DNA from: Saccoglossus kowalevskii
Lineage: Eukaryota > Hemichordata > Enteropneusta > Harrimaniidae
Direction: 5' to 3'
Assembly (NCBI RefSeq): GCF_000003605.2
Contig: NW_003155746.1
Location: 77,481 to 99,524 of the forward strand
DNA: 22,044 bases
This document shows, in pieces, positions 3,201 through 20,902 of the stretch. The first letter of the stretch is position 1; every line of letters begins with the position of its first letter. The notes under the pieces were generated by a model. The model saw only the letters and a program-made list of their open reading frames with translations, was not told the DNA's origin and did no database searches. The translations under genes were made by a program, and so were the position numbers.

Positions 3201-6200
3201 TTTTATTGTATAGCGCCCCCTGGAGGGTGATAGTGAAAGCTAATTTTGTTTATTGTTATTTTGGTACTTATGCATCAAGCATTTAATTATTCGTTATTTC
3301 CACATTTTATTTGTGCTATTGCAATAGTTCCAAGTCATGTCACGAAATGAGTTCCTGTTATTAGTCGGCAATTTTAAATCAGATCCAGTTCCGGAATTGC
3401 AGAAGAAATGCTTGATTATAGGATTTTGACATAAAATGACTGTCATTCACCCATCTGGAATCAGATCATAAAACAAATGTGTGTCCAATATAATGTCTGA
3501 TGTATGTGCGAAGTTTGAACTTGATCAGCCTAAGCATGTGTGAGATATGGCTGGATAGGAACTGATGCACATATGCATGAAAGTCAATCCATAAGTCCCT
3601 GTTATCGGACTTTATCAGAAAGTGGACTAAAAAACATTAACCAGGGTGAAAAAAAACAACACAACATGACACAACACTACACACGGGGAGCACTTACCTC
3701 TTTTTTGGCATATCCACCGATAGATCATAAAACTGTTCTGTTTTAGTCACCACTTCATTACACTGATTGCACGTAATTACATGACACACTTCAAACTCAA
3801 AATTCTGTGTTACAGGACAGCTGTGATATACAGGTGGCTTGTCATCACCTGTAATCTTGGCTTCAAAGTCTTCTTTCATATCGTTGTTCAGTTTTTCAAC
3901 ATCTTCTTTGAGCTGATCCAGACACTGACCCAGGAATTCATGCGCATCCTTCCAAGAGGAAAATAAATCAAAATTTGGAAAGTAATCATTAATAGAACAT
4001 ATGCTGGTTTTTGCTGCATGTGATGTTCTTGTTTTATTACATTAGCAGGACTGCTAATGTATTTAATTACATGAACAAAAATATATACTGTAAAATCTGT
4101 ATTAAAAGCCGCGGCATCAACTAAAATGGTACAATACAACAGATGGGGATGTGGCTTCTATTAGAGCATCTACACATATGAGAAATGGGGTCTCAATTGT
4201 TCAAAAAGAATGGGTGCAGCTTCTATTAGGGATGCAGCTTCTAATACAGATTTTTCGGTAGTTTTAATAATGTTCTTCGATACTCTGCATGTTGATGTCC
4301 AAATCTGATTTATCGTAGCGTAATAGTTTCTTGATGATCATTGAAAATATTAAAATGCAAATACAGTGATTGTTATTGTTCTATTAAAAGAATCATCATA
4401 TATGCAGATAACAAAGGAAATTGTTTCATCAAAAAAATACTCAGTTACGTGTTACATTAACATAATTAGTATTTAGATCATGATAGATCATAATGTAATG
4501 TCATCAATGAAATATCAGAAAGAAATATTGAGAATTATATATCCATACAACATTTTTTAAAATTTGGTTGACATGACAACATCATTTGCATTTCCCAAAG
4601 AATTTGTGATTACATACACATTTAGAAGATTGTTTACAGCAAGTCTCATACTTATGTTTGGGAAGAAAGTTCAAGGGTCAATATAGAAGTCTGCTCATCA
4701 GGGACAGATGGACAGACTTCTATATCTGTCCCTGATCAGCAGATTTTAGCTGGAATAGGTAAATGTACAAACTGTCTGTCTCTGAGGACAGATGATTTCA
4801 AGTTTTTACTAACTGACCAAATTAGGTAGTTTGACTTATGAAATGATGAACAGCCAAGAATTAACATTTTATTTAAAATAATAAGTCATCATCAATTAGG
4901 ACAGGCACTTTTATTCTCCCAACCAGTCCAATAGACAGGCAACCTTAATTCAATTTAATATCAACCCCCGAAGTTTGACTTGCTCACTAATTTACCAACG
5001 TATTCAGTTTGGGAACAGCAACTGATAACTCTTATCATGTATTTAATATTTACGTGTCCATAATTGTGCTTGTAATTTCCATCATGACCACAGTAACATT
5101 GGCATTTCCAAAAAAGGCATAACACTATGGCACTAGCCTACTTTCTATTATTACAGAAATATACAAAATTGTTCAAAAACTACTTTACAGTATATGCCCT
5201 ATTGGAAGCACATAACCCTTGGGATAATTTACTATAATAGGGTGTGTCTACATTGCGCATTAATATTTGCATATAACATTAGCACGTAACAAAGATTGTG
5301 ATGAAGGAAAGAGTGGTACATGTATAAAGAAAGATCAGTGATTACTTGAAATTGATACCAGGAGGGGGGGGGGTGGTAAAAGAAAAGTTATACAACATTT
5401 TATTATTTAATAATTTATTAAAATACACAAGTTTGTCCAACTCCCTGTGCACATAATATAAAATTCATTCGTTGTATGTATTATTGAATCATTAAAATAA
5501 TACTCATTTTGACCACAGAAACACCTCTGTAATTTATTTACACATATTAATCGAAAAAATACACTGATGCATTCTGGGAGAATGATACTAATACTCACAT
5601 GCTGCAGAAAACCTGAAAATCTTTCAGCACTGGAGGAGATTGCCAACTTGACACGTTTTAATAAAAGACTTCTTTCATCGGACAACATCAGTTTAGAAGA
5701 TCTTCTCACAGATAATAAATATGCGAAGCATCTATCAAAGAAAAAAAAATATGCAACCTAAAATATTTTGGTAAATTGTCAACATCTTATTTTGAAAAAA
5801 TCTGTTGAAAATTGGGAAGTCACTTATTACAGACTAATAATGAGTTGGCATTACAAGCTGCGACTTCTATTAAAATGGTACAATGCAACAGAAGGGATGC
5901 ACTTTCTATTAGAGCATCTACACATATTTATCTCAATTGTTCAAGAAGGATGGGTGTGACTGATACCCATTTTACGGTACATAATGCTATAAATCTAGCG
6001 AACTTCTCATGGGCGCTATACATGAATAACCCTGGTCACTGGACAAAATAAATAAATCTATAAAAACCATCTTTAACCCCCTTGGAGAAGAGGGTTATAG
6101 CCAGAAAACAGAAAGTGATGGAATTTAGACGTGTTTTATATACAATTAAAACAAAATATTTGTATAAATTTTTGTAATACATTTGGAAATGAGATCCATC

Positions 6201-9200
6201 ATGGATTGTGTCAGGCAGTTGTAGCGCCCATCCCGTACAATAGACAAGCAACTTTCAATTCGTACAGAGACTAGCAGCCATTATTGGAATTGACAATATT
6301 ACGTACCTGTAAAGACTGGTTTTGGGCATTTTTTTGAAGATATCACCATTTAAGACATCGTTAGCAAATGTTTCCAAACCGAACAAAGATTGTAAAATGG
6401 CATTCATATAACATGTATTTCCGAGATTGGAAAATCTACAGAGAAGACAATTGACATGATTATGAGTCCACACTAGATAACCTGACATAGTGTATATTAC
6501 CAGGTATCAAAGTCGCATACTTTCAGCTTATAAATTATTGATAAAAATGATATAAGGTTATTACGAGAATACCTCAAAGTATGCACGAAGACAGTATAGC
6601 TGGAGTATACGCCGACGTGCAGCGTTACTGTCTGAGTGCATACTTTGAGATATCTTCGTAATAACCTTATTATTATACACTTTTCAAGGATACATCATGG
6701 GAATGCCAAAATCCAAAAAGTTTAGAACAAAATCAGCGAACTTCTTTGTGTGGAGTCGGTCAAACGCTAATGGCAGCCATGTTTTTTTTTATTAAAGGAT
6801 GCTTACACGCTGTAACTTATGCTGTTACGGTGACAGATGTATAATAAATACATATACACTAATATGAATCAGAACAGTAAGACAATTAGAAGTATAATAA
6901 AAATATTTTTAAATTGAAAACAAATGAGATAAGTTTTTACTGACCCTTGCAAACTAACTTGTGATGTTTTATTTGTCACCAGTTTATTTTTGTTGCCCCA
7001 TCCTTCATAGTTTTCACTAAGTCTTTGACTTTTGGTGAGGTGTGAAGGATCAGAGAGAAATCCTAGTGGTCGACGTGACTTCACTGGACTATTCCTGAAA
7101 TAGAATTATGATAATTACTATTATCATTAACCTAAACTCTCTACAGATGTAACCATTAACCCTCCTTTTTCAATGTGACATTTGACCCAATCCCCGTCTG
7201 TCAATTTTAACCATCCTTTCCCACATATGGTGTGACCTCCAATGCCTTCACATGGGATGAGATTTCAATCATTTCAGAGGTGGTGTGACCTCCAACCCCT
7301 TCACATGAGGTGAGATTTTTACCATTTCAGAGGTGGTGTGACCTCCAACCCCTTCACATAAGGTGAGATTTCAATCATTTCAGAGGTGGTGTGACGACCT
7401 CCAACCCCTTCACACGTGGCGAGATTTTTACCATTTCAGAGATGGTGTGACCTCCAACCCCTTCACATAAGGTGAGATTTTTACCATTTCAGAGGTGGTG
7501 TGACCTCCAACCCCTTCACACGTGGCGAGATTTTTACCATTTCAGAGATGGTGTGACCTCTAACCCCTTCACATGGGATGAGATTTTTACCATTTCAGAG
7601 ATGGTGTGACCTCCAATCCCTTCACATAAGGTGAGATTTCAATCATTTCAGAGATGGTGTGACGACCTCCAACCCCTTCACACGTGGTGAGATTTCAATC
7701 ATTTCAGAGGTGGTGTGACGACCTCCAACCCCTTCACACGTGGTGAGATTTTTACAATTTCAGAGGTGGTGTGACCTCCAACCCCTTCACATAAGGTGAG
7801 ATTTCAATCATTTCAGAGGTGGTGTGACCTCCAACCCCTTCACACGTGGCGAGACTTTTACCATTTCAGAGATGGTGTGACCTCCAACCCCTTCACATGG
7901 GATGAGATTTTTACCATTTCAGAGATGGTGTGACCTCCAACCCCTTCACATAAGGTGAGATTTCAATCATTTCAGAGGTGGTGTGACCTCCAACCCCTTC
8001 ACATAAGGTGAGATTTTTACCATTTCAGAGGTGGTGTGACCTCCAACCCCTTCACATGAGGTGAGATTTTTCCCATTTCAGAGGTGGTGTGACCTCCAAC
8101 CCCTTCACACGTGGCGAGATTTTTACCATTTCAGAGATGGTGTGACCTCCAACCCCTTCACATGGGATGAGATTTTTACCATTTCAGAGATGGTGTGACC
8201 TCCAACCCCTTCACATAAGGTGAGATTTCAATCATTTCAGAGGTGGTGTGACCTCCAACCCCTTCACACGTGGTGAGATTTTTACCATTTCAGAGATGGT
8301 GTGACCTCCAACCCCTTCACATGTGGTGAGATTTTTACCATTTCAGAGATGGTGTGACCTCCAACCCCTTCACATGAGGTGAGATTTCATACATGTATGA
8401 TTGTAACTGTAATCATTGACCCTTTCTAAACGTATTGCATAACTTAACAATATACACCCTTGATGACATTGGTACAATAACAATACCATACCTTAGTGAT
8501 AAAAATGTATTATTCCGTCCATAGTTTACCATCTGTTGTCCACGATTATTGTAAAATCCACCAACAGCCAGTTTAGGTGCTACAATGTATGGAGAAAAAG
8601 TCATTGCAACATTCAGACATTGCGTTAACCACATATTGTGCTTCCCGAACTCCCAATATTAGAGAAAGAGACACATATATATTGTCAATTCATTTCATTT
8701 TTGCATCAGGACTCGCTACGTGAAACTAACTGTACATCATTATATATTTTCACTATTTTGATGTTTTGAGCATATACATTATCTTATTTTCCCGAATTTG
8801 TCAAGAAAACAATGAGTTTTATTATTATTTAACATGTTCACATAGATTTAATTTAGTGGATTTTATTAATCAGCGAAAATAGCAAAATTAAAACCCAGTA
8901 AATAATTAATGCATTTACAGTATGTGAATTATATATATATTATCACATGCATTTTTTCACAATAAAATTTATATAAGCCTGCAAGCTCTGCGTGACCTAT
9001 AAGCAGCACGTACTATGAATAAAAAAAATTACGTCAGCAAACATTTGAAGACGCACAAAGTTTTTTCAATAGAGGACGTTGGATGAAAGAGGGTCACTAC
9101 TTACTAGAGGTCGTTGGATGAAAGAGGGTCACTACTTACTAGAGGTCGTTGGATGAAAGAGGGTCACTACTTACTAGAGGTCGTTGGATGAAAGAGGGTC

Positions 9201-12200
9201 ACTACTTACTAGAGGTCGTTGGATGAAAGAGGGTCACTACTTACTAGAGGTCGTTGGATGAAAGAGGGTCACTACTTACTAGAGGTCGTTGGATGAAAGA
9301 GGGTCACTACCAGTACTTACTAGAGGTCGTTGGATGAAAGAGGGTCACTACTTACTAGAGGTCGTTGGATGAAAGAGAGTCACTACTTACTAGAGGTCGT
9401 TTTTTCCTCAAGCTGCTTCTGTTTCTCATTAAAATCTTCAAGGAAGTGGGAAGATGTGGTAGATGATATCTTTCGTTCCGATAGCGCTTTCCTTTCAGAC
9501 CGAGGTGACGTAATCCTAATGACATACAAAAGGTTTATGAGACAAAGTGAATGCACAAATTTCCAATAAAAGTGTATATATAAACCCCTTAGCTGTGTAT
9601 TTTATTTTACAATAGATTTACACAAGCATAAGTAACATACATTAGTGCGATGCTGCGAGAAATCGTCGAAATATCTTCTTTTCTCTTTATGTAAGGCATT
9701 GTATTGTACAGTATAAGTTTATTGTGATCCTTCATGTGTTTGTAATATTATTTAGCATTCTGTGTAGTTGATTAACCTTACTGTATCTTAATGTAGTTTA
9801 TTTTATTTTATTTCTATTTTTATACGACCATAGAACAACTCACTGTAGATTGTTTTAGTGTTGAATGAATATTATTATTATTATTATTATAAGCATATAA
9901 AGTAACAGAGGTGTACTGCAGAACACTTAATTTGCGCTTAGAATTGATTTTCGCTATAGAAATGATTCAGTGAATATAAAATCCAGCGAATATACTTGTT
10001 TTCTTATATTTTACATTCAACTCATCAAAAAACAGTGAAAATAAATTCCATACAAAACACCCAAAAAGTCTATTCAGCGAAAATTAATTCCAGCTAAAAA
10101 AGTGTTTTACAATATCTATGATCAAAATAAGGTATATGTTTAATGATGCAGTGTTCAGTTGTTAGTTTGTGTTCTTCTAGTAGGAATGTGATTCTGAATG
10201 GTGGAAATCAGTGTCAGCACTTGGGGGAATTATCCAAAAATATCTGTCCCAAACTTGAGATGACACCACAACAATGGTTGTTAAATTTAATGCTGTGATT
10301 GCAAGTACAATGTGTATAATTTGAAACATAGCATTCTGAAGTTTGTGGTTATTATCAAATCATAATTTTCACTAGACCAGCACACTCTAATATAAACAAA
10401 TGTACTAATAAATCCACCAGCCTCATCACTACAAGAGAAATCTGAATGTATCCTTCCACATGAACACAATAAAGTCCTATACAAACCTGACAATTCCTTT
10501 ATTTTCTTTGTTTTTCTTGTGTTCGTCTGATGTTTTAGGGGGCACGGAACGCGAGAAATTATATGACATTGGACGTTTATGAGGTGTAAACGTAGTTTGC
10601 TGAGGCGAAAACACTTGGCCATTAGGCTCACCCTGCATGAATTGTAACAAGAATAGCAATATATAGTTAGTAGGTGACTTTCCGTTCAACTGCGAGATCT
10701 CGTAAGATGCATGAAAGACGCGCATCGAACGTATGCCGCAAAAATCGAAAGATTTGATTTTGAACTCTAATTTCTTTAATTCGTAGCTCACATCGACCGG
10801 CCGATCTTCGGAAGAGGAATATTGCTTTTGAATACCCTGACTTAATAGAAATTGTCTATCATCATGGAAATGCCCCCCAAAATATTTCTGCGTTTGTCGA
10901 ATCCCAAGCGATGTTTGACGCCACTACAACGTTATGACATTTGTTTGTCGTGTTTTTATGTTTGATTTCACGCATAACGCGTGATTCTCGCAGTGAACGG
11001 AAAATGATCTATTGGTGTGGTATGTTAAAGCACATTTCATACATGGACTGTAAATTTCTGAAACACTACTTGTAGCAGAAAATAAATGGTTTAAACATTC
11101 AAATATTGTATTTATCCGGATAAGAGTCCATGCCTGGGCAAATGCCCCCCCCCCCCCAAATTTTTCCTACACTTGTATAAAAAAAATAACAAAATAGCAA
11201 AATAGGTAATTTTACATTTATTTTTCAAGATTTTTTATCAGAAAAGTTTTTATGACAAGACAAAACCAGCTCAAAGCAACTTCAGAGTTAAGTTAAGACT
11301 ATGCTGCAGATTGTTTTACAGTGAATGCTTACCTTACTGATCATTGTTTTAACTGGAGTCATGGAAGAAAACCTACTAGAGCCTACAAAGAAACCCAAAC
11401 AAACTTTATTAACATTCATAAAGTCAGAAAAAAACATTTGTCAGAAAGTAAATGTCACCAGTGTAAGAAAAAAATTTTAACAAATTGTAATGATAATTTC
11501 AGAATAATAATAAGCCACCTATGCGTGCCAATTTTAGAAAAATAAATTAACCAGAAAAAGTGAAGAAAATAGTTTTGTCTCTGCCTAAAACAGACATGGT
11601 GGCTGGAAACTGACAAGGTGACACATAAAGAGCCAACATGACCTCAGATGCCGGACAGAAAAAAATCAATCAACATGCATTTCATTTTAATTTTTTTTTT
11701 TTAATTTTTTCCAAACTTCTGATAAAATGCACCCCAAAAAAAGCACACATCCCCTGGTTTCCTCAATTTATTTTGGGTAATCTGCTATCAGGGCCTGTCA
11801 AAGTGTTAAACTAACATGTGTAAAAAACTATACTCACCAGGTTGAGAATCCATTTTCAATTCATTCAGGTAGGCAGACATGCCTCTGACAATATCAGGGT
11901 TATTCGCTTGATCCAAGTGTATACTGTTACCATTCCTCAAGCAGATTATAATTCTTCGTCTATTAGTACTTGCTTCAGATAAACTTTTAACATTATTTTT
12001 CAGCTGAAATAACGCAAAAACTAAAAATTAATTTTGCTGACTCAATTAATGTTGCATTTCAGGATACACAGATGGAAAACTTATAACGATTTGATGGACT
12101 TTGTCATATCAAAAGTGCCTTCCATGAGTGAATTACTTTTTCAACTGCAGTTTGAAAATGACGAGGGTATGATGATTGATATTATGTCTAGTTCATTTTT

Positions 12201-14116
12201 GTAAGAGGTAAAACTGACTAAAATTAACGAGGGATTGACATTTTCGACAAATTTAAGCAACACACAACTTGCGATTTTTAAAATTACTGAAAATAATTAC
12301 AATATAAATATAAAAAATAAAAGGTTGCTGTATATGCACGCTAGATAATACTTGCAATTCACCATGCCGACAAACCTTATGAAATAGTAATCCCAAATGA
12401 CGCGCCCCTCAATCAAGTGGCGCTGAATAATTCTCAGAACGGCTGTAATTGCAGAATATGAATTCAATTCTTAAATAAATTAAGTTATCGGTAGATTTGT
12501 AAATAGACATACCAGGGATTTTTTTAAACAAAGGAACTGGGGTTCAGCGCCCCCATGCGATGGCCAAGGAAGCCATAGAATGCTCCAATTTAACTTACAA
12601 TTATCAAAAACTCCACACCCTGGTAGGGAGATCTTTTTTTCTAGAAAAAAAACTGAATACACTCACAAAAGACTGTGTTTGTTTTGATTACGTAGGCTTT
12701 TCAGCACAGACCAGTACTCATTTTGGTTGGCACTGTCCATATATTCAAGTTTGGACACCAACATGTTTTTATATTCTCTTTTTTTTATATTTTATAAGTT
12801 TTGTATAATGCTTTTTAAGGGTATAATATTGGTGTTTGATATATGGGTTGGTTGGTTGTTTTGTTAGCAACTTAGAGGTACATGTACTAATTAATTCCCT
12901 TTTTATTGTAGAAAACGACTTATCAAACCATTGTTGTTTTTGATAACAAATAATAATAACAAATTTAAAAAATCCTTGCCGACCAACCGACCAAGAATTT
13001 TATCAGACTGTTACTGAAAACATCAAATTTTGTTTTTATTTGGCCTTGAGGGACTGATGAACCTGGGTGGTGTTAGCAGGAATTGTGTTTATATTCTGTA
13101 TGAAAACATAGAACCTCTTATCATAAAAGCTAATGGGGGGACTGTTGGGGAAGCCCATGTTTTTCATGATTATATAATGCTCCAGTCAAGCAAATCAATC
13201 CATCAGACCTCACTATCCTTGAGTGTGTACCAGCACCTATCAAGTTTGCTTGTTTTTGGTTGGAATTTGTCCGATGTTCTTGTCCCAAGGAGTGGGAGGC
13301 AAGCATTCAGAATATATCAAAAAACTAATTTCCAAATCACGTACAAAACACAGAGGTAGGGTGGCAACGAGTGGATAGTAATAGTATTTATTAAAATTGG
13401 TGTTGGTTTGCGATTCATAATGTCAGTCAGCCGAAAAACTATAATTGACAGATTCTCTAAGACAGACCGGAAACGGAAACGAGACAAAAACAAAAGATTT
13501 TTCAAGTTAGCGTGGGGGAAATAACGTTGCTAAATATTATCGTCAAGGAAAGCTATTGTTTAAGCTAGTCTGTGATTGGTTGCTGGCAATGTTTGGGGGA
13601 TTTTGACCAGTTTGTGACGTAGGCTTGTCTTAGAGGTTATACCATGGAAGGTACCTTCATAGCTATATCATTATCAAGGAGCTAAAAAAAGAGAGAGAGA
13701 GAGCTCCATTACTATCATAACGGTATGTATTATATGAATTATGTACCTTTTCGGGGGAAAAAACTGATGACATCACCGGACTCACTAACAGGTATAAACA
13801 TTAAGTTACTAAAACACTACGTTTATGTTTTTGGTTGTTGTTGGCAGCTGGCCAGGAATGTTGACATCCTTGGCGAACACAGCTCAGACCTCAGGGTCAT
13901 TCAACATCGCAATGACTGAGTGCTATATGATTTAACGATTATTCGAAAAGTTAGGAAATCATGACGTACCGGATATGTCTTTTGCGTCCCAAACTTTGGC
14001 TTGAATAATATAAAAGGTGCTCCCCTCTCATTGAAGATGTGTATGTCGCCTTCCTTCCATTTCGATTGTCCATGGTCGAGGCCAGTGTGCTTCACTTTTC
14101 CGCTAACGCGAAACAT
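82..14116 (-). CDS. USP37: Ubiquitin carboxyl-terminal hydrolase 37-like gene, 5' part (12 exons, 3' end off window)
   Basis: Predicted cysteine deubiquitinase of the USP (C19) family. In vertebrates USP37 removes ubiquitin from cyclin A and other cell-cycle proteins and is controlled by E2F, CDK2 and APC/C-Cdh1. Seen here: twelve exons (13970-14116, 11838-12003, 11333-11382, 10487-10632, 9391-9515, 8492-8579, 6945-7094, 6307-6435, 5599-5731, 3698-3948, 3006-3137, 82-246) whose phases join without a stop into 560 codons plus two bases. Order: PH-like N-domain (residues 1-104), low-complexity linker (105-290), Cys box GFSNLGNTCYMNA with nucleophile Cys299, DAHEFL box at 379, CxxC pairs at 438/441 and 487/490, and LHLKRY at 510-515. 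The UIMs and the catalytic His/Asp boxes must lie beyond the left edge. The linker seems shorter than in human, where I recall the Cys at about 350. An in-frame TGA nine bases before the ATG supports the start. Identification is from remembered family sequence, not a search. Confidence 0.95.
247..3005 (-). other. USP37 intron 11 (2.76 kb)
   Basis: AT-rich with no coding potential that I recognise. It holds a G-run at 780-790, a CT-repeat near 1142-1154, a G-run at 1570-1577, an AT-repeat near 2544-2557, and two members of a dispersed family with a TATCCGGGTA core (near 1740 and 2715-2805). The ORFs here (for example the one at 2208-2465 on the minus strand) have no USP features. Confidence 0.8.
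3006..3137 (-). CDS. USP37: USP37 exon 11 (second zinc knuckle)
   Basis: 132 nt, phase 2 in and out, acceptor TTGTTCTCCAG and donor GTAGGT. It encodes SIQYTIDQFFRDEKIEYDC, then SECHYRQATVTHKFTRLP. The YDCSEC pair (487/490) completes the zinc ribbon. The segment aligns with human SIQDSLDLFF and HKFNRLPR. Confidence 0.96.
3138..3697 (-). other. USP37 intron 10 (560 nt)
   Basis: Bounded by GTAAGT and TCTCCAG. The central part (about 3495-3560) resembles the segment near 15930-15970, including a shared GTTTGAA and TTGATCA. It looks like an old dispersed repeat. No exon is seen. Confidence 0.75.
3698..3948 (-). CDS. USP37: USP37 exon 10 (DAHEFL box and first zinc knuckle)
   Basis: 251 nt, phase 0 in and phase 2 out, acceptor TCTTGGAAG and donor GTAAGT. 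It starts at DAHEFLGQCLDQLKEDVEKL and contains FEFEVCHVITCNQC (CxxC, residues 438/441), then TKTEQFYDLSVDMPKK. These are the USP helix lining the ubiquitin groove and the first half of the zinc ribbon. Confidence 0.97.
4086..4260. mobile_element. 175-bp mariner-like MITE
   Basis: The ends form terminal inverted repeats of about 24 bp. The left reads TACTGTAAAATCTGTATTAA and the right, reverse-complemented, reads TACCGAAAAATCTGTATTAG, with 20 of 24 positions matching over the full arm. The termini begin and end with TA, as expected for Tc1/mariner-type insertion. There is no transposase frame, so it is non-autonomous. The interior repeats GCTTCTATTA. Confidence 0.6.
4681..4743. repeat. Overlapping double inverted repeat (bistable hairpin)
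   Basis: 4681-4693 is a perfect 13-bp inverted match to 4713-4725. The overlapping arm 4690-4709 matches 4724-4743 inverted at 19 of 20 positions. The order A-B-A'-B' means the two stems compete or form a pseudoknot-like topology. It lies in intron 9 of USP37. Confidence 0.8.
5599..5731 (-). CDS. USP37: USP37 exon 9 (catalytic domain)
   Basis: 133 nt, phase 2 in and phase 0 out. The acceptor has a strong T-tract (TTTTTCTTTGATAG) and the donor is GTGAGT. It encodes CFAYLLSVRRSSK, then LLLKRVKLAISSSAERFSG and FLQH, matching the human FAHLLVKKD, LLKKVKNAISATAERFSG and YMQN segments. Confidence 0.95.
5732..6306 (-). other. USP37 intron 8 (575 nt)
   Basis: Contains the truncated MITE at 5855-5979. 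The remainder is AT-rich with no exon or RNA gene seen. Confidence 0.8.
5855..5979. mobile_element. Left-truncated second copy of the 4086-4260 MITE family
   Basis: The TAAAATGGTACAAT segment and the TTCTATTAGAGCATCTACAC segment occur in the same order as in the copy at 4086-4260. This copy also ends in a CGGTA terminus. It lacks the left terminal repeat. It lies in USP37 intron 8. Confidence 0.6.
6307..6435 (-). CDS. USP37: USP37 exon 8 (catalytic Cys box)
   Basis: 129 nt, phase 2 in and out, acceptor TTCTCTGTAG and donor GTACGT. After the split glycine it encodes FSNLGNTCYMNAILQSLF, the USP Cys box with nucleophile Cys299 and oxyanion Asn, then GLETFANDVLNGDIFKKMP. Near identity to vertebrate USP37 over this box makes the family assignment secure. 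Confidence 0.97.
6436..6944 (-). other. USP37 intron 7 (509 nt)
   Basis: More than half is taken by the foldback element at 6550-6847. The remaining flanks are AT-rich. Confidence 0.8.
6550..6847 (+). mobile_element. Foldback element, copy 1 (inside USP37 intron 7)
   Basis: Begins with a hairpin of about 119 bp (6552-6670) whose arms (ATAAGGTTATTACGA and its complement, then TCAAAGTATGCAC and AGACAGTA) pair over about 45 bp. About 180 bp of unique tail follows, ending ACGGTGACAGATGTATAATA. The same hairpin, tail and end occur inverted at 19306-19725. Relative to that copy, this one has lost roughly 100 bp of the tail. Confidence 0.75.
6945..7094 (-). CDS. USP37: USP37 exon 7 (linker end, RPLGFL motif)
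   Basis: 150 nt between acceptor ATTTCAG and donor GTCAGT, phase 2 in and out. NSPVKSRRPLGFLSDP aligns with the human TPSAKRSLGFLPQP segment, and NYEGWGN aligns with DYTGWNK. It holds an SPVK CDK consensus (Ser243) and an RxLxF cyclin-docking-like motif (RPLGF, 249-253). It leads directly into the catalytic domain. Confidence 0.93.
7095..8491 (-). other. USP37 intron 6 (1.4 kb)
   Basis: Almost entirely occupied by the 53-bp minisatellite (7222-8391). About 130 nt of single-copy or degenerate sequence separates the array from exon 7, and 100 nt separates it from exon 6. Confidence 0.85.
7222..8391. repeat. 53-bp minisatellite, 22 units
   Basis: The unit reads (plus strand) GAGATTTTTACCATTTCAGA followed by GGTGGTGTGACCTCCAACCC and CTTCACATGAGGT. 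I count 22 CTTCACA blocks. Some units carry a 3-bp expansion (GTGACGACC). Three sequence variants at the unit end (CGTGGCG, ATGGGAT, ATAAGGT) recur in fixed order, showing block duplication. Degenerate units extend left to about 7150. There are no unique spacers, so this is not a CRISPR array. Confidence 0.97.
8492..8579 (-). CDS. USP37: USP37 exon 6 (linker)
   Basis: 88 nt between acceptor TACATTGTAG and donor GTATGG, phase 1 in and phase 2 out. It encodes TPKLAVGGFYNNRG and VNYGRNNTFLSLR. This is low-complexity linker similar in tone to the SSSFYGSRAGS region of vertebrate USP37. It is flanked by the two minisatellites in introns 5 and 6. Skipping it would shift the frame into a TGA within five codons of exon 7. 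Confidence 0.82.
8580..9390 (-). other. USP37 intron 5 (811 nt)
   Basis: The exon-5-proximal 320 nt is the 35-bp splice-donor minisatellite. The remainder up to exon 6 is AT-rich, with an AT-repeat near 8931-8940. Confidence 0.85.
9071..9398. repeat. 35-bp minisatellite containing copies of the exon 5 splice donor
   Basis: Nine units begin at 9078, 9113, 9148, 9183, 9218, 9253, 9288, 9329 and 9364. A partial unit lies at 9071-9077. The 9288 unit carries a 6-bp insertion and the 9364 unit a G-to-A change. On the minus strand each unit reads ACGACCTCTA then GTAAGTAGTGACCCTCTTTC, i.e. the last bases of USP37 exon 5 plus its 5' splice site. The unit at 9364-9398 contains the real exon end (9391). 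Confidence 0.97.
9391..9515 (-). CDS. USP37: USP37 exon 5 (linker)
   Basis: 125 nt between acceptor GTCATTAG and donor GTAAGT, phase 2 in and phase 1 out. It encodes a polar linker, ITSPRSERKALSERKISS followed by HFLEDFNEKQKQLEEKTTS. The SPRS and RKAL (RxxL, D-box-like) motifs are visible. Its last ten bases and the donor are reproduced in the 35-bp tandem array that starts here and runs into the intron. Confidence 0.85.
9516..10486 (-). other. USP37 intron 4 (971 nt), with a possible retroelement 3' tail
   Basis: AT-rich. The stretch from about 9640 to 9891 ends in an (ATT)n run (9870-9891), a pattern typical of a non-LTR retrotransposon 3' end on the plus strand, but no coding remnant is visible. 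Otherwise nothing is recognised. Confidence 0.5.
10487..10632 (-). CDS. USP37: USP37 exon 4 (linker with CDK site and KEN box)
   Basis: 146 nt, phase 0 in and phase 2 out, donor GTTTGT. The acceptor CATGCAG is preceded by a perfect TACTAAC branch-point sequence 34 nt upstream (10666-10672). It encodes a basic, disordered stretch with FSPQQ, FTPHKRP (a TPxK CDK consensus, Thr137) and KNKENKG, a KEN box at residues 163-165. KEN boxes in vertebrate USP37 recruit APC/C-Cdh1. The open frame continuing upstream to 10791 is intron read-through. Confidence 0.88.
10633..11332 (-). other. USP37 intron 3 (700 nt)
   Basis: Contains the TACTAAC branch point (10666-10672), a C-run at 11144-11157 and a third member of the TATCCGG-core dispersed family (about 11108-11150). 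No further exon is needed, because exons 3 and 4 join in phase. Confidence 0.8.
11333..11382 (-). CDS. USP37: USP37 exon 3, 50-nt microexon
   Basis: Acceptor TTTCTTTGTAG and donor GTAAGC flank 50 nt that convert phase 1 to phase 0. The split glycine and the following residues read GSSRFSSMTPVKTMISK, which resembles the SGSFGAIL region after the vertebrate PH domain. It is too short to appear as an ORF. It was found because exon 2 (phase 1) cannot join exon 4 (phase 0) without a stop. It contributes a TPVK CDK consensus site (Thr113). Confidence 0.85.
11383..11837 (-). other. USP37 intron 2 (455 nt)
   Basis: Bounded by GTGAGT and TTTGTAG. It contains A/T homopolymer runs, and nothing else is recognised. 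Confidence 0.8.
11838..12003 (-). CDS. USP37: USP37 exon 2 (second half of PH-like domain)
   Basis: 166 nt between acceptor ATTTCAG and donor GTGAGT, phase 0 in and phase 1 out. It encodes LKNNVKSL, then RRIIICLRNGNSIHLDQA and a MSAYLNELK helix. This matches the LSHNIKNVVL, LMLTLQDNSFLSID and MRLFLDAVHQ elements of the vertebrate domain, i.e. the last beta strands and C-terminal helix of the PH fold. Confidence 0.92.
12004..13969 (-). other. USP37 intron 1 (1.97 kb)
   Basis: Single-copy-looking AT-rich DNA. It holds an unmatched 109-codon plus-strand ORF (13030-13359), a GA-repeat at about 13688-13702 and a 12-bp palindrome GAAGGTACCTTC near 13647-13658. A CCAAT-box-like ATTGG and a TGACGTA near 13575-13620 could be intronic enhancer elements, but this is speculation. 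Confidence 0.7.
13970..14116 (-). CDS. USP37: USP37 exon 1 (start codon, first half of PH-like domain)
   Basis: 49 codons, ATG to CCG, followed by donor GTACGT (phase 0). The ATG has G at -3, and an in-frame TGA lies nine bases upstream. The SKWKEGDIHIF segment matches the ITKWKEGSFEI stretch of the vertebrate N-terminal PH-like domain. The lead peptide before it (MFRVSGKVKHTGLDHGQ) aligns with the vertebrate N-terminus in length, so no earlier start is needed. Confidence 0.92.
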
Positions 14117-19098: not shown

Positions 19099-19283
19099 CT
19101 AGTCTTCTAGGTCTAGATCATCTAGTTCTTCGTCTAATTCTGCGTCAAATAATTGTTCGTCAACCGCTACATCATCTGTAAATAATTGTTCATCGATTTG
19201 CACACCGTCCAACGACGGATCTTCAACTGGCGTCGATGATGACGGAGGTAAGGCAGCAGCTTCATCTAATTTATTATTTTCCT
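19099..19283 (-). CDS. ZC3H15: ZC3H15-like (DFRP1) terminal coding exon
   Basis: Acceptor TTATTTTCAG, then two bases that complete a Glu codon, then 60 codons and TAG. The acidic C-terminus (VDEQLFDAELDEEL, ending DDLDLED) matches the human ZC3H15 end (VDENLFTGEDLDELEEEL, ending NTLDLEE). ZC3H15 binds and stabilises the GTPase DRG1 and associates with translating ribosomes. The zinc fingers and DFRP domain lie upstream, off the window. The DEQLF motif occurs twice here, against one DENLF in the human protein as I remember it. Confidence 0.85.
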
Positions 19284-20902
19284 CTGAAAATAAAGCATAT
19301 GTTAAATTATTATACATCTGTCACCGTAATGCTATAACTTACAGTGTGCAATAATTTTGTGGTATTGCACTGGGTATTTTCATTCTACCATATAAGGAAA
19401 TGCAAATTCCAAATATGAAATGATTACGCACATAAGCGTTCTGTAATGATAAAAACAAACATGGCTGCAACGAGGGTTTGACCGGACTCCACACAAACAA
19501 GTTCGTTGATTCTCTTCTAAACTTTTTGGATTTTGGTATTCCCATGATGTATCCTTGGAAGGGAAAGATGTATAATAATAAGGTTATTACGAGGATAACA
19601 CAAAGCATGCACTCAGACAGTAAGACGTCGCATTGACCTCCGCTGCACGTCAGTCAATGCTCCAGCTGTACTGTCTTCATGCCTACTTCGAGATATCCTT
19701 GTAATAACCTAATATTATTATACATTTAGTTTTTACCAGTATGCTGAATATTACTTTTATTTACATTCTTTCAAAACATATATGTATATGCATTTCATCA
19801 AGCGTTTGCTTTTATTTGAGCAGTCATACATTTCGAATTTATGCATCATACTTTTTGAAATAGGCATCACAAACACTTGTAATTGACAGTAAATAAAATA
19901 CCCCAAAATTTCAATATAGTGTATTGGTCTTACTTTTGTTGAGAATGAAATCAGTGCTTGATATAAAACAACGAATATTACAATTAGGTTTTGTAACTTA
20001 CTTGACGTATTACAAATATTGACGATGATGAGCACAAAATCAATCATTAGTTTGTTGCAATATACAAGTGAAATTTAACTTATCATAAGGGAATGATTTG
20101 AGGGAACCGAAAAAAATGATATCGGCCATGTTTTGAGTTGACCTAAAACTGTGTCCTTTACTCTGACATGTCAAGTTGGTCCTGAACTGAGAGTACCAAG
20201 GAAGGATCTAAAACACAATTGCACTAGTTTGATTTATCTATTTTCCCAGCACTACAAATAAAACAATATACACTGGAATCAGCCTTTCTGAGTATACTCA
20301 ATGACGTGGTGAATCACTAGGCCAAAAAAAAAAATTTTTTTTTTGCCTTCAGCGACTGACCGAAAAACATCTGGTCACGTTTTTTTTGTTTGTTTTTTTT
20401 AATAGGCCCAAATATTAAAAACTCTCCATTTTAAGCAGTAAAAAAGTGTTTCCTTTAAAAATTAACGTTGCTTGATCCCAAGGGTCCGGGGGGTGGGGGG
20501 ATAAGGTTGATCTGTATTTAAATACAAAAGACTGAAAGAAACACTTTGATTTTTGTGTTTAATATCTAGCATGCGTTTGATTGATTCCCATATACCTTGG
20601 CTATTTACGACACCCTTAGTTTTCACAAGTTAAAAAAAAAAAAAAAAAAAAATCTGGTGGACCGACCCAATTTTTCAATTTTCCGACTTGAGGGCGAAAT
20701 GAGAACTGTGTTATCAATGATTGGCTGTCTCCATGACTTCAGTACAATACCATGGGAATATGCACACACAGACTGACCATTAGGCAAGTCCTGCTGACAA
20801 CACTTTAGGCCGATTCACTAGTCTATTATTCATAGATATTTCAAAGTCTCACAATCATGAACGCCATCTAGGCTAAACACAATAATAATGCTGCAAACTT
20901 AC
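19284..20902 (-). other. ZC3H15 last intron (1.62 kb)
   Basis: Contains the foldback element copy 2 directly upstream of the acceptor. Poly-A/poly-T runs at 20324-20344 and 20631-20651 and a G-rich tract near 20486-20501 lie further upstream. Short GACCGACC-like repeats flank the homopolymers. No exon is detected. Confidence 0.75.
19306..19725 (-). mobile_element. Foldback element, copy 2 (abuts the ZC3H15 3' splice site)
   Basis: Inverted relative to copy 1. The hairpin (about 19578-19713) starts AGGTTATTACAAGG on the minus strand. The tail includes CCAAAATCCAAAAAGTTTAG, shared with copy 1, and ends ACGGTGACAGATGTATAATA. The direct repeat ATTATTATACAT (19306-19317 and 19714-19725) flanks it. 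Its end is about 22 nt from the acceptor at 19284. Inner GCATTGAC/GTCAATGC arms extend the hairpin tip. Confidence 0.75.

Follow-up and report, generated by a model that had tools for sequence, protein, structure and literature searches.

Tandem repeats lying across exon-intron boundaries, termed mirages, have been described in lancelets (PMC3087553), among them those of Adh3, troponin C, the globins BflGb6 and BflGb9, and PGBD5 (PMC3087553, PMC3902484). Mirages are presented as not disturbing splicing (PMC3087553, PMC3902484), and reverse transcription PCR data for Adh3 and the globins suggest that splicing is regular despite their presence (PMC3087553). The first of these sources also reports somatic instability at the Adh3 mirage, proposes a role in intron gain, notes that one mirage was misassembled in a draft genome, and cites the Rogers model, in which introns are gained via tandem duplication of exon sequence bearing AG/GT (PMC3087553). 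Here, we describe an array of this type at the end of a coding exon of a USP37-type gene in the hemichordate Saccoglossus kowalevskii. It lies in a window (i.e., the whole stretch of DNA that was analyzed) of 22,044 nucleotides from contig NW_003155746.1 (positions 77,481 to 99,524 of the forward strand). We consider it likely that this array is a neutral mirage-type minisatellite and that splicing takes place mainly at its exon-side donor.

Read in gene orientation (minus strand), the array consists of exactly nine units followed by an 11-mer, as established by string identity, and was detected by Tandem Repeats Finder with a period of 35, 9.3 copies, 95% matches, and a score of 596 (Table 1). 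The unit comprises AACGACCTCTA, which represents the 11 terminal exon bases, followed by GTAAGT and 18 further intron bases. Eight of the nine units are 35 bp long and the third measures 41 bp. Units 2 and 4-9 (i.e., seven of nine) are identical to each other, while units 1 and 3 and the distal 11-mer each carry private variants. Both edges of the array carry nearly identical 11-mers: the exonic one reads AACGACCTCTA and the distal one AACGTCCTCTA. A first-pass annotation of this DNA had placed the array at 9071-9398 and had given the unit as 35 bp including the last ten exon bases and GTAAGT; the array and the build of its unit stood, while the extent was corrected to 9070-9401 by Tandem Repeats Finder, the exonic share to 11 bases, and the length to admit one unit of 41 bp. 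The eight decoy donors that it had counted downstream of the real one were all located (9355 to 9104), and positions -3 to +8 are alike in all nine donors with the exception of +8 in the copy at 9320. The array thus holds nine GTAAGT in 332 bp, as compared with one in the 10,088 nt that make up the remainder of the gene, for which 2.8 were expected under a first-order random model, and the cluster is beyond chance.

A minisatellite with multiple splice donors also occurs in a vertebrate gene, human IFI6 (6-16); it was reportedly described by Turri et al. in 1995 and has a unit of 12 bp. The USP37 array resembles the lancelet mirages in that it spans a boundary and copies splice signals (PMC3087553, PMC3902484): its unit crosses from exon to intron, the authentic boundary sits at the edge (the donor belongs to unit 1), and the interior is homogenized (units 4-9). 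The units of the Adh3 mirage measure 10-72 bp, and in the lancelet clusters, too, the authentic boundary is located at the edge. Units at the globins and PGBD5 have a greater length of 60-160 bp, and some of them copy the acceptor side instead of the donor copied here. The USP37 array further differs from these cases in belonging to a hemichordate and to another gene. The units of IFI6 can act as splice donors, as those described here might, and two downstream ones are reported to do so (PMC4526556); the human downstream units in use yield protein isoforms, whereas the USP37 decoys all reach a stop. As in the Rogers model (as cited in PMC3087553), a stretch bearing splice signals has been duplicated, but the copies sit inside an existing intron, create no new intron or exon, and carry CTA/GTAAGT, not AG/GT. 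Aside from human IFI6, no junction-spanning mirage beyond lancelets was found in the open-licence literature searched.

The position of the exon boundary derives from a ten-exon gene model that extends from the first exons to midway through the catalytic domain. The spliced model encodes 461 aa without a stop. Pfam searches of this product identified UCH_N, the USP37 N-terminal domain (PF16674; 7.1e-9, 35.9 bits with a cut-off of 25), followed by the UCH catalytic domain (PF00443; 2.2e-23), and the catalytic part matched solved USP chains, the top match being a USP46 chain (1.8e-12). By its domains, the gene is a USP37-type deubiquitinase, a label taken here to include USP26/USP29-type paralogues, in agreement with the identity proposed in the first-pass annotation. 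Since reading phases agree through exons 4-10, the exon end at 9391 was joined to the acceptor at 8579. These are the same boundary and acceptor that had been proposed before, and the donor origin of the repeat, which hinges on this boundary, is confirmed by the phases and domains together with a unit that spans the exon end and GTAAGT. The candidate 50-nt exon at 11382-11333 (minus strand; SSRFSSMTPVKTMISK) was included on the basis of restored phase and splice signals, and it appears less certain than the other exons because it was picked for restoring the phase of its neighbours. The array-bearing exon is coding exon 5, as previously numbered, if this candidate is counted, and coding exon 4 otherwise. 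The next intron contains a second minisatellite (7228-8387; 53 bp x 21.7, 89% matches) of mixed unit types, some of which are donor-like (GAG/GTGAGA) and acceptor-like (TTTCAG) on the plus strand, the gene being on the minus strand.

Next we computed on this model the consequences of decoy use, which would add 35, 70, 111, 146, 181, 216, 251, or 286 nt to the mRNA. The first-pass annotation had predicted an in-frame TAG within three codons of any distal donor, and indeed one and the same TAG is reached from all eight decoys, with EEKTTSSK-stop as the computed tail. Since more junctions follow this TAG (the usual rule for nonsense-mediated mRNA decay, NMD, is 50-55 nt), decoy-spliced mRNAs should be NMD targets. 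Pairing with U1, scored against the U1 5' end, was -7.2 kcal/mol for the real donor and seven decoys and -7.0 kcal/mol for the copy at 9320. The ten modelled donors ranged from -5.1 to -11.8 kcal/mol, and the array donor was the second weakest among them. In the predicted fold, the mean unpaired probability of the real donor (0.50) fell within the range of the decoys (0.40-0.53), and the array RNA appeared weakly folded (-27.7 kcal/mol versus a mean of -59.3 kcal/mol in 200 dinucleotide shuffles). RNA structure was rejected as the selector of the donor, given that the real donor is unpaired to about the same degree as its decoys despite the weak fold of the array. Recursive splicing was likewise rejected, as the sites read CTA/GTAAGT and not AG/GT. 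In these predictions, the real donor is separated from its decoys by neither strength nor structure, so that position and exon context would have to make the distinction.

Similar arrays were sought elsewhere in the genome. A 501-bp query containing the USP37 array and its flanks retrieved only its self-match in the 572-Mb genome of the species. Within a contig sample of 269,524 bases, of which 128,150 are N or gap, the 141,374 non-N bases (window included) held nine minisatellites with a period of 10-100 and at least three copies, one of which contains GTAAGT. Triple GTAAGT with gaps of 15-45 nt occurred 11,144 times (5,801 + 5,343) in the genome, against 32,461 (15,610 + 16,851) for the same pattern read backward; single hexamers in the sample without the array numbered 66 against 156 backward, so that triples at this spacing show no GTAAGT excess. 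With gaps of 27-31 nt there were 3,264 GTAAGT triples (1,767 + 1,497) against 4,010 backward (1,681 + 2,329), a per-hexamer excess of GTAAGT, and those among the matches listed were mostly (GTAA)n tracts. From these counts we claim neither enrichment nor absence of GTAAGT clusters.

Among the matches listed, there were 16 GTAAGT arrays whose 5' flank could be read, and three of these start at the end of an exon (Table 1). This set comprised 15 of the 18 clusters among the matches listed, which cover the first contigs only, plus C380; C93:44339 was left out for not being tandem, and C29 and C260:231k for their N flanks. From the listing with gaps of 27-31 nt we left out C704 (contig edge), C741 (flank still array), C284 (not tandem), and C285, C359, and C644 ((GTAA)n), and C133 had already been counted. 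Flanks were judged by eye from three-frame translations of up to 240 nt, with homology searches covering four candidate peptides; at C224 and C176, degenerate units run further upstream and could conceal an exon located farther out. The first of the three arrays starts in an exon of spermidine synthase (Pfam 1.6e-9, phmmer 8.6e-26) and the second in an exon of 3-hydroxyacyl-CoA dehydrogenase (HADH; Pfam 1.2e-11, phmmer 1.7e-12). The third, at C260, starts in a 68-nt frame that had no Pfam or PDB match and is judged to be an exon solely from its anatomy. Each of the three exon frames meets a stop within the first two units, and the arrays share the build of the USP37 array with unrelated units. 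The description of an exon-junction origin as unusual in the first-pass annotation is therefore partly right, in view of the lancelet mirages and human IFI6 and of two more homology-supported cases in this same genome. Three of 16 is not clearly above what blind seeding would give, because at least one of the ten GTAAGT found elsewhere in the window serves as a donor in the model, a lower bound given that only the gene model was considered and other genes of the window lie outside it.

Some further arrays were not counted. At C181 near 100532, a possible 26-nt exon has a 38-bp x 22.5 array starting from its GTAAGT, and most inner units of this array have lost the donor. At C58, an exon-like frame about 110 nt upstream of the array had no Pfam match. 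The 49-bp minisatellites at L002 8097-9048, which adjoin an N run, show GTGAGT on the minus strand, and no exon was seen at their edge.

Table 1. Coordinates of the USP37 array, its gene model, and the exon-end arrays found in the same genome
Feature	Coordinates	Strand	Details	Basis
Minisatellite	9070..9401	-	nine units and final 11-mer	Tandem Repeats Finder and string identity check
Exonic 11-mer	9391..9401	-	AACGACCTCTA, proximal array edge	string identity
Distal 11-mer	9070..9080	-	AACGTCCTCTA, far array edge, without donor after it	string identity
Modelled authentic donor	9385..9390	-	GTAAGT	listing of nine GTAAGT and exon phase
Eight decoy donors	9099..9355	-	G at 9355, 9320, 9279, 9244, 9209, 9174, 9139, 9104	
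Array-bearing USP37-type coding exon	9391..9515	-	exon 5 of model; 3' end is first part of array	phase, open frame, domains
Next coding exon	8492..8579	-	in phase with 9391	phase
USP37-type gene model, ten exons	3698..14116	-	first exons to mid-catalytic domain; gene continues leftward	phases, Pfam
Model exons	14116-13970, 12003-11838, 11382-11333, 10632-10487, 9515-9391, 8579-8492, 7094-6945, 6435-6307, 5731-5599, 3948-3698	-		
Exon-end array, spermidine synthase	C253:454918 onward		41-bp units, 16.6 copies, 15 GTAAGT in register; starts about 34 nt inside exon	
Exon-end array, HADH	C93 upstream of 65423	-	31-bp units, 45.4 copies, 37 GTAAGT; starts about 4 nt inside exon	
Exon-end array, probable	C260:332246 onward		31-bp units, 9.7 copies; repeats last ~22 nt of 68-nt open frame behind good acceptor	

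If the decoys were under selection, GTAAGT should outlast other parts of the unit. We compared its intactness with that of the other hexamer phases of the unit in five arrays, all of which had been found by exact GTAAGT. GTAAGT was intact in 37 of 46 units at HADH (14 of 30 other phases were better kept), 15 of 16 at spermidine synthase (7 of 40), 8 of 9 at C260 (11 of 30), and 7 of 23 at C181 (32 of 37). In the USP37 array it was intact in all nine units and no phase was better kept, but there is almost no variation. The upkeep of GTAAGT thus gives no clear sign of selection.

From the anatomy we infer that the array arose from a pair of 11-bp direct repeats, formed by the terminal 11 bases of the exon and a copy 24 bp inside the intron. 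A slippage event or an unequal exchange involving this pair would have duplicated a 35-bp stretch, including the donor because it lies between the two repeats, and later rounds would have led to nine units. Coding constraint would halt the array at the exon edge, which would leave the exon-side copy as the working donor. Splicing would occur mainly at this donor, as reported for lancelet mirages, and mRNAs spliced by leakage to a decoy would be lengthened by 35-286 nt, contain the TAG, and be destroyed. The neutral origin proposed here is supported by the presence of the same 11-mer at both edges, the exon phases and domains, the single match in the genome, similar U1 pairing and predicted accessibility of decoys and real donor, and the ordinary intactness of GTAAGT, and the like-built arrays at spermidine synthase, HADH, and probably C260 point in the same direction, as do the lancelet precedents with their reported regular splicing. 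The array itself probably does little.

Several observations weigh against this interpretation. The 41-bp variant is the third unit and not one at the array edge, and when tandem arrays of shuffled units served as control, two of 150 were as weakly folded as an array of the perfect unit. Mean identity was also slightly higher at the six donor bases than at other positions in four of the five arrays (HADH, 0.964 versus 0.943; spermidine synthase, 0.990 versus 0.974; C260, 0.981 versus 0.956; USP37, 1.000 versus 0.993), a difference that the selection of arrays by exact GTAAGT favours; C181 showed the opposite (0.819 versus 0.959). Finally, neutrality and donor choice are deduced from the sequence of one allele in one species.

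The first-pass annotation had offered neutral slippage, a U1 platform, and a polymorphic switch side by side; the first is favoured here, and similar U1 pairing, similar predicted accessibility, and ordinary GTAAGT intactness leave little to the others. A noisy or regulated switch, in which U1 binds more than one of the equivalent donors, part of the mRNA is lost to degradation after acquiring the TAG, and array length or the level of U1 or serine/arginine-rich (SR) proteins tunes USP37, seems unlikely to us. It would draw on nine donors of equal predicted strength that rank second weakest of the ten modelled, on the TAG common to all decoys, and on the weak structure of the array RNA, and when two donors are bound by U1 in vitro the intron-side one tends to win. 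Two downstream units of human IFI6 are reported to act as donors (PMC4526556), but lancelet mirages are reported not to disturb splicing (PMC3087553, PMC3902484), and comparable arrays show no exceptional upkeep of GTAAGT. Still less probable is a U1-recruitment platform under selection, on which bound U1 would aid exon definition or guard the transcript from early polyadenylation. Nine predicted-accessible donors within 332 nt and the slightly better upkeep of donor bases in four of five arrays would fit such a platform, but U1 pairing is weak, seven of the nine units do not differ at any position, so that the donor does not stand out, and GTAAGT intactness ranks as ordinary in the other arrays and poor in C181.

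Least probable of all is that the copy number, or the array itself, stems from misassembly. The contig is gappy (128,150 of 269,524 bases are N or gap), an N run starts just after another minisatellite (L002), and a lancelet mirage is reported to have been misassembled in a draft genome (PMC3087553). Against this, private variants mark units 1 and 3 as well as the distal 11-mer, and the same build recurs with diverged units at other exons, which limits real doubt to the copy number; nine units represent one allele in a gappy assembly.

A lancelet was rejected as the source of this genome on the basis of a mitochondrial contig (C4830; 17,037 bp). In this contig, COX1 (identified by Pfam search) is inverted relative to ATP6, COX3, ND3, ND4, ND5, CYTB, ND1, and COX2 (assigned by eye from translations), and a tRNA-Lys has the anticodon ttt. 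COX1 uses neither AGA nor AGG and contains a single AAA, at a Lys position; nine of its AUA codons could be aligned and correspond to Ile (5), Val (2), Leu (1), and Met (1) in the top-matching PDB chain, 7o37_a. For Saccoglossus kowalevskii, AUA=Ile, AAA=Lys, no use of AGG, tRNA-Lys UUU, and an inverted COX1 have been described (PMC3121625), whereas cephalochordates have AUA=Met, and the gene orders described for lancelets differ (PMC2034537, PMC7055842). If the contig is part of this genome, the animal is most likely an enteropneust close to Saccoglossus.

Elsewhere in the window, similar AT-rich stretches (..ATAAGGTTATTACGAG.. and a mirrored end) were seen by eye at about 6545-6700 and 19560-19730, and they may represent a dispersed element present twice. 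An open frame at 19099-19320 (minus strand) with a very acidic end (DEQLFDAELDEELDDLDLED) could be the terminal exon of an adjacent gene.

The array at USP37 adds to the known mirages in what seems to be a new phylum for them. It represents a natural counterpart of the duplicated-donor constructs used for 5' splice site choice, with nine near-identical donors and a stop codon as read-out. A broader idea, which we regard as doubtful, is that minisatellites arise repeatedly at exon ends in this hemichordate, with many genes carrying runs of spare donors, in parallel to what is seen in lancelets and possibly dating back to the origin of deuterostomes. If true, such runs would keep supplying unstable alternative donors, poison extensions, and new introns. 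The presence of several such arrays in the Saccoglossus genome suggests that mirages are not confined to lancelets, and therefore intron gain via tandem duplication of boundaries could be tested in a second phylum.

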